Source of the DNA: Synechococcus sp. 1G10
GTDB lineage: Bacteria > Cyanobacteriota > Cyanobacteriia > PCC-6307 > Cyanobiaceae
Length of the DNA stretch: 64,000 bases
Direction of reading: 5' to 3'
Assembly (NCBI RefSeq): GCF_002252625.1
Contig: NZ_NQKW01000009.1
Span: 1 to 64,000 of the forward strand
Part shown: piece after piece, positions 3,814-5,967 of the stretch
Position numbering within the stretch: the first letter of the stretch is position 1
Layout: the number at the start of each line of letters is the position of its first letter
Made by a program: the position numbers and the translations under genes
The notes under the pieces: model-generated
What the model was told of the DNA's origin: nothing
What the model saw: only the letters and a program-made list of their open reading frames with translations
The model's database searches: none

Positions 3814-4752
3814 ATGACTGGGCATGGATCTGTCGGCGGTTCACGAGTCTTCATCAGTTCTGTAATGCGTGATTATTCAGACCGGCGTACCGCGGCCGAA
3901 CAGGCGGTGCGTTTTCTTGGCATGGAACCCGTTCTCGCTGAAGATCTGGTGGCATCTGGGGGTGCGCCGAGGGAGGTTATCCTCAACGATGTTATCCCAG
4001 ATTGCGATGCGTTCTTGGGGATCTATGGGTCCCGCTACGGCTGGACTGGTGCAAAAAGCAGCCATTCACCCACTGAGGAGGAATATGATCGGGCCCGTGA
4101 ACTGTTCAAGCCTATCTACGCCTTCATTGACCGCACCGATAACGAAGACATTGAGCCGCGTCAGCAAGATTTTCTTCAGAAAGTGCAAAACTGGGATGTG
4201 GGGGTTCTACGGAGAGAGTTCACCACCACTCGTGAGTTGCAAGAGATGGTGGCTGAAGCCCTTAGCAAGAGCCGCCTCTCACCTTGCTATCGGCACTTTC
4301 TTCGCCGACTCATCAAAGAGATACATAACATCAATGGATTGGTGTTTCACGAGAAAGACCAGCCATTCTCTCCTTGTTTTGATCTTATCCTCCACTGTCC
4401 GTCCAGCCAATTGACCGGCAATGATGACTTTTTTGTTGCCGTAGTTTCCGGCGACGAATATAATCGTCAGCAGATCTCCCAGGCGAGACATTCCTGGTTT
4501 GAAGATGTAAATAGACAGATCGGAGCAGGCTTCTGGAAGGCACGTGGCGCCTACCTTCAATTGCTCATTGTTGCCGAGAGGAATCCTTTTGCCCTAACCA
4601 AGGCGGATCTAGAGAAAGACAAACGCATCGGATCTTCCACAAACTTCGAAGAAGTCTTTGTCAATCTTTCCGCCTCATCGATGGATCTTGCTCCAGGCAT
4701 CCCTTCGTGGGTGCATCCTTTGAGGGATGCAATTAAGCGATGCCTGGAGTAG
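3814..4752 (+). CDS. DUF4062 (TIR-like) domain protein with unknown C-terminal domain
   Basis: The 312-residue product starts with a DUF4062 domain at about residues 10-100, marked by RVFISSVMRDYSDRR, a central VIPDCDAFLGIYGSRYGW block and the SPTEEEYDRA block. DUF4062 belongs to the wider TIR-like/SLOG-associated fold group found in prokaryotic conflict systems and NTPase-linked sensors. Residues about 155-312 form a second domain that I do not recognise. Codon and base use are more AT-rich than in the neighbours, which suggests horizontal transfer. The gene is divergent from the TIR-like/patatin operon and ends 73 bases before an IS5-group transposase. Its role in immunity is inferred from context only. 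Confidence 0.7.
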   Translation: MTGHGSVGGSRVFISSVMRDYSDRRTAAEQAVRFLGMEPVLAEDLVASGGAPREVILNDVIPDCDAFLGIYGSRYGWTGAKSSHSPTEEEYDRARELFKPIYAFIDRTDNEDIEPRQQDFLQKVQNWDVGVLRREFTTTRELQEMVAEALSKSRLSPCYRHFLRRLIKEIHNINGLVFHEKDQPFSPCFDLILHCPSSQLTGNDDFFVAVVSGDEYNRQQISQARHSWFEDVNRQIGAGFWKARGAYLQLLIVAERNPFALTKADLEKDKRIGSSTNFEEVFVNLSASSMDLAPGIPSWVHPLRDAIKRCLE

Positions 4753-4824
4753 CGAAGGAAACCCTTGAAAACCCAGCTAATCCACGCAACAATTCCCCTG
4801 TGATCACAGCACTCATCGCGGTTC

Positions 4825-5967
4825 ATGGGCGGCAAGCAGCTCGGTCACCGCTTCGCGGAAGTCTTCGCCTACGGTGATTACGAGCAAACCACGGCTAGGA
4901 AGCGCACCAAACGCGAGCGATTTCTTGCTCAGATGGAGGCGGTTGTTCCCTGGAAGCCGCTGATTGAGCTGATCGAGTCTTACTACCCCAAGGCCAGCGC
5001 CAAAGGAGGCCGTCCTCCTTACCCATTGGAGACCATGCTGCGGATTCACCTGATGCAGCAGTGGTACGACCTCAGTTATCCAGCCATGGAGGATGCGCTG
5101 ATTGAAGTACCGATGATGCTGCGGTTCGCTGACATCGAACTGATCAGCGACAGGATCCCGGACGAGACCACGATCCTCAGCTTCCGCCACCTGCTGGAGA
5201 AGCACGATCTCGGCAAGCAGATCTTTGAGGCGGTGAAAGCCCACCTCAAGGCCAACGGCATGGCCATGAAGCAGGGCACGATCATCGATGCCACCTTGAT
5301 CGCTGCGCCCAGCCCCACCAAGAACAAGAAGGGTGAGAGGGATCCCGAGATGCACCAGACCTGCAAGGGCAAGCAGTGGCATCACCGCTTCGCGGAAGGC
5401 TTTGCCTACGGCATGAAAGTCCACATCGGTGTGGACAAGGACAATGGCCTCATCCACTCGGTGGAGACGACGGCTGCCAACGTGCATGACCTCACGCCAG
5501 CACCAGACCTCCTTCACGGCGAAGAGACGGTGGTGTATGCCGACGCTGGCTACCAGGGAATCGAGAAGCGCCCAGAGATGGAGGGCAAGGGCATCGGCTT
5601 CCGAGTTGCGATGCGGCCGGGGAAGCGGCGCGCCCTACCCGATACCCCGGAAGGAAGGCTGGATGATCTGATCGAGAAAGCCAAGGCCCACATCCGCTCG
5701 AAAGGTGAGCATCCGTTTCGCGTGATCAAGCCCCAGTTCGGCTTCCAGAAGACCCGGCTGCGGGGCATGCTCAAGAACCGCTGCAAGGTGAATGTGTTGG
5801 CAGCCCTAGCGAACCTATTCATGGCCCGCTATCAGTTGCTAGCTAGCAATCCAGTTCCACCACCCGCTGCAGCGTGGCCTCGAACGCCAGCTGGATCGTC
5901 AGGCAGCTCTGCTGCAGCTCCAGCCACTCGATCGCACCATCACGCCAGTGGAGCCACTGCTCACTGA
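4825..5967 (+). CDS. IS5-group (IS5 family) DDE transposase with two in-frame 24-bp insertions
   Basis: The frame closely follows the E. coli IS5 transposase as I remember it: an RPPYPLETMLRIHLMQQWY block, the first Asp in IIDATLI, the second in YADAGYQG and the Glu in GEHPFRVIKPQFG, so the DDE triad is present. Two decapeptides, HRFAEVFAYG (residues 8-17) and HRFAEGFAYG (187-196), interrupt otherwise conserved stretches; each adds eight residues. After LFMARYQLLASN (about 5846) the frame runs into unrelated proline/alanine-rich sequence, so the native C-terminus and right end appear lost. It could still be catalytically competent, but movement without a right inverted repeat is doubtful. Confidence 0.88.
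   Translation: MGGKQLGHRFAEVFAYGDYEQTTARKRTKRERFLAQMEAVVPWKPLIELIESYYPKASAKGGRPPYPLETMLRIHLMQQWYDLSYPAMEDALIEVPMMLRFADIELISDRIPDETTILSFRHLLEKHDLGKQIFEAVKAHLKANGMAMKQGTIIDATLIAAPSPTKNKKGERDPEMHQTCKGKQWHHRFAEGFAYGMKVHIGVDKDNGLIHSVETTAANVHDLTPAPDLLHGEETVVYADAGYQGIEKRPEMEGKGIGFRVAMRPGKRRALPDTPEGRLDDLIEKAKAHIRSKGEHPFRVIKPQFGFQKTRLRGMLKNRCKVNVLAALANLFMARYQLLASNPVPPPAAAWPRTPAGSSGSSAAAPATRSHHHASGATAH
4845..4874 (+). repeat. Small palindromic repeat copy 1, in frame in the transposase
   Basis: This 30-base stretch matches 5382-5411 at 28 of 30 positions. It contains CCGCTTCGCGG, a CCGC/GCGG mini-hairpin, and adds eight codons to the N-terminus of the transposase. It looks like a mobile mini-repeat that inserted without breaking the reading frame. 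Confidence 0.65.
5382..5411 (+). repeat. Small palindromic repeat copy 2, in frame in the transposase
   Basis: This second copy carries two tandem mini-hairpins, CCGC-TTC-GCGG and AGGC-TTT-GCCT. It splits the conserved transposase segment KQWH / GMKVHIGVD. The two differences from copy 1 lie in the second hairpin. Confidence 0.7.

Follow-up and report, generated by a model that had tools for sequence, protein, structure and literature searches.

The 64,000-nt stretch of Synechococcus sp. 1G10 analysed here (hereafter, the window) contains on its forward strand a 380-aa open frame (positions 4825–5967) for a transposase of the IS5 family, which matches NF033581 (transpos_IS5_4) at 317 bits (cut-off: 140), has detectable DDE_Tnp_1 and DUF772 domains, and ends in about 40 codons without homology to the family. 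The gene belongs to an IS5-family insertion sequence (4757–5828, forward strand) that is homologous from its left end on to a 1218-bp element of WH 5701, where three identical copies are flanked by CTAG or TTAA duplications. Positions 1–1024 of the WH 5701 element align to 4757–5828 at 78% (blastn) and homology stops there; the terminal ~190 bp, which would include the right terminal repeat, were not found, and matches to the IS5 right-end motif in the window (58 at ≤2 mismatches; 56.8 expected) were not above chance. IS5 relatives have terminal repeats at both ends and a target duplication of 4 bp, a combination that the window copy does not show. This copy is a remnant without a recognisable right end and is probably unable to move by itself. 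When the transposase was compared with plasmids by tblastn, the best 5000 records were all below 60% identity. Directly upstream of the remnant lies a 312-aa open frame (3814–4752) with a DUF4062-type resemblance noted by eye only.

The transposase gene carries two 27-bp copies of a short element (copy 1, CACCGC...GCCTAC: 4846–4872; copy 2: 5383–5409; both on the forward strand), each standing where relatives have a single codon (TTC or TTT at site 1; TTC, TTT, or TAC at site 2), with a net gain of 24 bp. At the protein level, the nine codons HRFAEVFAY (copy 1) and HRFAEGFAY (copy 2) correspond at both sites to one codon (Phe, rarely Tyr) of the empty version. An earlier sequence-only reading had placed two in-frame copies at 4845–5411, and they lie there as described: 4845–4874 and 5382–5411 share 28 of 30 bases in the same codon phase of one open frame. 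A 20-bp core at ≤3 mismatches occurs at exactly these two places in the 64-kb window (0.01 expected by shuffling). The same reading had seen tandem mini-hairpins in both copies, which holds in full for copy 2, where CCGC-TTC-GCGG (5385–5395) and GGC-TTT-GCC (5398–5406) both fold (−6.3 kcal/mol, z −2.05), but only in part for copy 1, where CCGC-TTC-GCGG (4848–4858; sequence and fold) is intact and the second hairpin, GTC-TTC-GCC (4861–4869), has lost its middle pair (T against C; copy 1 as a whole: −4.4 kcal/mol, z −0.80). In a sequence-free scan, copy 2 was the only perfect 4-bp/3-bp tandem-hairpin motif with TA in the window, and 10 shuffled controls gave 0–3. The AlphaFold model of the transposase (15 alignment rows) was not usable, with a mean pLDDT of 50 and both insert regions below 50.

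Comparisons with IS5 relatives show that the HRFAE(V/G)FAY residues are not native to this transposase family, because relatives without them exist at both sites. Among 23 aligned nucleotide relatives, site 1 was empty in 18 and filled in five (L051, L061, L063, L068, L071), and the forward insert at site 2 was absent from 17, present in four (L045, L051, L058, L067), and unalignable in two (L068, L071). Three of the 17 copies lacking the forward insert (L059, L064, L065) have a 22-bp reverse insert adjoining site 2. In a protein alignment of 15 sequences, the window transposase was the only one with site 1 filled, and five more shared its filled site 2. The proposal that eight residues had been added at two places of an IS5 transposase is therefore borne out: the alignment returned empty close relatives at both sites, and not the residues in all of them.

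Synechococcus sp. ATX 2A4 (L051; 86% nucleotide identity) has both sites filled, as in the window, so that the doubly filled state is not unique to the window's genome. In the IS5 tree, however, the ATX 2A4 copy groups with L055, in which both sites are empty, and with L045, in which only site 2 is filled, so that the inserts shared by the window and ATX 2A4 may have been inherited together or acquired separately. Four IS5 copies of WH 5701 comprise one with site 2 only (L045) and three with neither insert (L046, L047, L060). The 49-row IS5 tree (5 of 54 rows were dropped beforehand, and three distant loci before that; 13 of 46 branches are open) requires 10 changes at site 2 and two at site 1, which may represent repeated gain, loss, or exchange between copies, three processes that look alike on this tree. 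A second small repeat (~35 nt, two hairpins by eye) was seen in other IS5 transposase copies (L068, 3000–3200; L058, 3000–4100); genus-wide at ≤3 mismatches, it gave 12 matches and its backward control 15, i.e., no excess.

Both inserts belong to a dispersed repeat family with the architecture hp1-GAA-hp2-TA (two mini-hairpins, ~25 nt). Of 300 genomes from the window's family, 37 contain copies at ≤3 mismatches from a 26-nt core (the window's own is among the 37; the family is taken as picocyanobacterial from its named relatives), and the backward pattern gave 0. An open pattern, ACCGCTNCGCG-N(0–12)-CTNCGNCTA, was present in 36 of 41 chosen genomes and, even though 13 gap lengths were allowed, yielded copies of just two lengths, 77 of 25 nt and 15 of 23 nt, i.e., 92 distinct copies after those with <30 nt of flank were dropped. 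This CGC-type pattern fixed most stem positions of the hairpins and left the middle pair of hairpin 2 free. Among the 77 copies of 25 nt, that pair was GC in 33, CG in 26, AT in 16, and TA in one, with a lone mismatch in copy 1 of the window. Covariation thus shows the hairpin structure, with all four Watson-Crick pairs represented and 76 of 77 copies paired. The exact pattern occurs at 16 places in one genome (G265); in a class-wide sample it was found in 4 of 291 genomes, three from the window's family and one from outside (G484, a 28-nt match).

The window's own genome contains three places that match a 29-mer at ≤3 mismatches, two of them in the window; further copies, which the earlier reading had envisaged, do exist in this genome, but they are few and all IS5-derived. 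The third place, on the same contig, is a decayed and more distant IS5 copy with the insert at site 2 (L121; G000:C28:113317-114311). A looser 24-mer gave 13 places in this genome vs 2 for its backward control. Elsewhere in the genome, a repeat-rich region (L172; G000:C19:57500-74500) combines duplicated gene fragments with a tandem array of an 8-bp GGGGCATG-like unit, and a structural scan located four element copies in it. We rejected the C19 copies as independent insertions, since variant copies lie inside the duplicated gene fragments.

Judged against empty sites, the copies are real insertions. The joined flanks could be aligned to a relative for 60 of the 92 distinct copies (the other 32 had no alignable relative), and the net length was +24 in 38, +25 in eight, +22 in four (23-nt form), and another value in 10, mostly from poor alignments. 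The clearest exchange is found in a Mutator/IS256-type transposase gene of G007 and G004 (the latter of the same genus as the window's genome), in which flanks that are 98.6% identical enclose CAT-TTC-GCC in the empty version and CAT-CAC-CGC-TTC-GCG-GAA-GGC-TTC-GCC-TAC-GCC in the filled one (net +24). Likewise, a site inside a group II intron differs by +25 between G308 and G007, with flanks again 98.6% identical. TT is replaced at insertion, and the inspected junctions have no target duplication. The element is followed by C in 72 of 92 copies and by G or T in 20; 19 of the 77 25-nt copies are followed by G or T, and 8 of the 12 such copies with a measured net length are +25, so the TT(C) target rule is not uniform. 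Insertions occur on either strand, in several transposase families and in other genes, in line with the earlier idea of a mini-repeat that enters coding genes. Many of these host contexts are mobile genes, and IS movement or gene conversion inflates the copy counts.

Host genes named by Pfam comprise IS66, Mutator/IS256, and DUF772 transposases, Rad52-like genes, and a DUF4357 gene (a DDE_3 match was below the cut-off); motifs indicate further hosts that are presumably IS1182, ISAs1, IS630, and HNH genes. Host frames were read in the frame judged to be the gene's. The frame remains open at five forward sites that coincide with a Phe codon (the two IS5 sites, Mutator/IS256, the DUF772 transposase, and the gene at L203) and at three reverse sites (two in IS66 and one in the DUF4357 gene). 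Four distinct reverse sites with a net +24 acquired an in-frame TAG (DUF772/IS1182-like, HNH, ISAs1-like, and one other gene), the frame was shifted at the +25 sites that were read, and some elements (+25 or +24 net) lie inside the group II intron itself. Growth by 24 bp that keeps the frame is common without being a rule of the mechanism: the notion of a phase-preserving repeat falls on the +25 and +22 classes and on the in-frame stops, and the expectation that all copies measure 24 bp and keep the frame holds for the +24 majority of net lengths and not for the rest. In the window gene, 17 TT dinucleotides begin at the first codon position, 12 at the second, and four at the third, a modest bias, and the insertion phase seems to follow the placement of TT/AA in codons together with survival.

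The 23-nt form (net +22) stands directly behind an in-frame ATG, creating ATG-TAG, in 10 of 14 copies read. Five of these ten copies have further stops or frame breaks, and five have none in the stretch read. The ATG-TAG insertions are probably disruptive; recoding by translational bypass may occur, but ordinary disruption is sufficient to account for them. The same placement was observed in Rad52-like genes and in another gene family (L216, L217, and L218 of G265; L210, L185, L215).

The repeat is carried along by IS5 transposition. The single-contig genome G216 contains four IS5 copies that are identical in 1234 of 1235 columns, all with the site-2 insert and each flanked by its own 4-bp CTAR duplication (CTAA or CTAG), and these separate duplications show that the insert hitchhikes. 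The transposase with eight extra residues is, therefore, predicted to be functional, which we regard as probable. The ride on a mobile element that had been proposed for the window thus exists in G216, but the window's own copy is probably a stranded passenger.

Several elements are followed directly by CTTGTGCCACGAGTCAAA, the sequence with which a group II intron begins. Intron RNA was recognised as RF01999 in seven of eight loci searched and as RF00029 in the other one, and the intron measures ~1.86 kb in most of the copies for which both ends were located and 0.7–0.8 kb in three. Its protein is a group II reverse transcriptase/maturase (TIGR04416: 414 bits, cut-off 300) that contains, by Pfam, only RVT_1 and GIIM without an endonuclease domain (one 432-aa protein), and its closest solved structure is the GsI-IIC reverse transcriptase (E 1.6e-46). 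One genome (G227; L272, L275, L274, and other loci) has 11 intron starts, including two introns head to tail.

To place the intron relative to the hairpins, junctions were collected by the intron start, and those with <40 nt upstream were dropped. Tandem mini-hairpins were found at 22 of 28 distinct 5′ junctions vs 77 of 12,560 random positions in the same loci, under strict pairing at a fixed distance of five bases and with element-bearing positions left among the random ones; the 28 junctions exceed the number of independent events, as several share host genes. At 21 of the 22 hairpin junctions the upstream sequence ends in TA(C/T)TT, and at the remaining one a second intron stands directly behind the first, to which the hairpin belongs. 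Among the six junctions that failed, L164, L292, L310, and L312 resemble decayed or variant tandem hairpins, and L288 and L300 do not. Hairpin 1 varies at the junctions as CCGC/GCGG, CTGC/GCAG, and CTCC/GGAG. In 24 distinct 27-mers collected only by intron adjacency, 136 of 168 cells pair, compared to a mean of 106 and a maximum of 117 in shuffles. The placement of the intron directly behind the tandem hairpin is thereby shown, and the hairpin repeat looks like a homing motif of the intron. That the intron lands on pre-existing elements follows from near-identical introns behind different hairpin variants and from an IS66 site found in two states, with a bare element at L087 and, at L257, with an intron inserted precisely between CTA and CGGCG. 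All 14 intron ends seen are followed by C (a fifteenth pattern match, L073, has no intron start).

Across the 300 family genomes, the intron was found in nine, the element in 37, and both in six; the element is present in 6 of 9 genomes with the intron vs 31 of 291 without it (Fisher p = 1.5e-4, with kinship and mobile-DNA load ignored). The element is also present in genomes, among them that of the window, where neither the intron nor a reverse transcriptase was detected. RVT_1 was not found in 12 of 19 genomes, again including the window's own, in a search of drafts that can miss multi-copy introns; G007 had no RVT_1 match, yet it has four intron starts.

We consider it probable that these observations reflect a small mobile repeat of picocyanobacteria that inserts at TT and whose hairpin pair is also the 5′-exon motif of a group II intron. 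The element would be a unit of ~25–26 nt, composed of two 3–4-bp mini-hairpins, a GAA linker, and a closing TA(C), that inserts on either strand at a TT dinucleotide, usually before C, and would replace TT without duplicating the target at the junctions inspected. Because the usual element nets 24 bp, a gene struck at a Phe (TTC) codon would gain eight residues and could stay open, whereas other orientations or variants would bring stops or frameshifts. The IS5 transposase of the window carries the repeat at two former Phe codons, in an IS copy that now has no recognisable right end. In its second role, in other genomes of the family, the hairpin pair is the motif directly 5′ of the group II intron, which may recognise the hairpins. 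The repeat itself may be mobilised as a folded RNA or DNA strand, a single-stranded state that the conserved hairpin structure favours.

Four other explanations bear on parts of this account. That HRFAE(V/G)FAY is ancestral to the transposase and was lost in relatives might be argued from the many scattered IS5 lineages in which site 2 is occupied; we rejected this reading, to which we give almost no credence, because the same DNA, down to the same 25-mer, is found in unrelated host genes and on the opposite strand, and because the Mutator/IS256-type gene pair of G007 and G004 differs by the element. A REP element mobilised by a RAYT is very improbable as well. The reverse strand of the repeat starts with GTAG next to a hairpin, a tag that resembles the GTAG REPs described for some cyanobacteria (PMC3733652), which would make a Y1 (TnpA-REP) transposase the mover; among 17 genomes examined, however, a single one, other than the window's own, had Y1_Tnp, on which ground this mover was rejected, and many element copies lie inside genes and consist of two short hairpins instead of one imperfect palindrome. 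Spread of both inserts within IS5 by gene conversion between IS copies, and not by repeated insertion, has a modest chance of being correct, given that diverged IS5 copies are occupied at the same two positions and that site 2 changes so often on the tree. Conversion does not account for the copies outside IS5, in further transposase families and in genes of other kinds, and the loops differ among site-2 copies.

It is also conceivable, if unlikely, that the intron ribonucleoprotein moves the element in trans by joining the hairpin 5′ exon to new C-initial (T|C) sites and copying it into the chromosome. The identity of the element with the 5′ exon of the intron, the C that follows every intron end seen and most elements, and the co-occurrence of the two above expectation would fit such a route. 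Conversely, the two may co-occur simply because each is common where a genome holds much mobile DNA, the statistic ignores kinship, 31 of the 37 genomes with the element lack the intron, and a fifth of the copies are followed by G or T. If it were true, the element would be a non-autonomous passenger, often in frame, that plants new homing sites for the intron, in a bacterial SINE-LINE-like partnership built on exon transfer. The reading that we prefer remains that of a small repeat inserting at TT, onto which the intron subsequently lands.

Several known systems share features with this repeat. The small dispersed repeats (SDR) that Elhai et al. reportedly described in 2008 from Nostoc punctiforme and its relatives are said to be 21–27 nt long, to share a hairpin structure with compensatory changes, and to occur inside other mobile elements. 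One of them, SDR5, is described as inserted precisely in HIP1 (PMC4390886). The present repeat resembles the SDR, as these are described, in its size of 20–30 nt, its dispersal in many contexts of one genome, and its hairpins with compensatory changes, but it targets TT(C), many of its insertions are intragenic, and a group II intron is found at the position that it marks. Group II introns of class C (IIC) are described as inserting at terminators or attC sites, with a hairpin as 5′ exon (PMC4424553). Our intron is like them in its hairpin 5′ exon, its reverse transcriptase and maturase without a further Pfam domain, and its closest solved structure, which make it a putative class C intron; it differs in that its target is a dispersed repeat of tandem mini-hairpins. 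The GTAG REP/RAYT systems share the GTAG beside a hairpin on one strand, whereas the present copies are often intragenic, form two mini-hairpins, and occur in genomes of which 16 of 17 gave no Y1 transposase. Rickettsia palindromic elements (RPE) are mobile palindromic repeats, about 100–150 bp long, that lie in frame in protein genes. Our repeat shares that habit, but RPE are longer, have another sequence, and belong to another phylum.

In the literature searched (titles and abstract openings), we found no account of this repeat or of group II intron homing to small dispersed repeats, and the group II intron standing directly behind a tandem hairpin is the new element of this study. We know of no mover for very small mobile repeats. 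The 25-nt family described here offers numerous insertions for which empty counterparts are available, shows that a transposase gene could take up the repeat in frame and its element still spread, and has a concrete partner in the group II intron located behind its hairpins. The mover of such small repeats thus becomes a directly testable question, and the family reveals a route by which proteins gain short, always similar peptide insertions.
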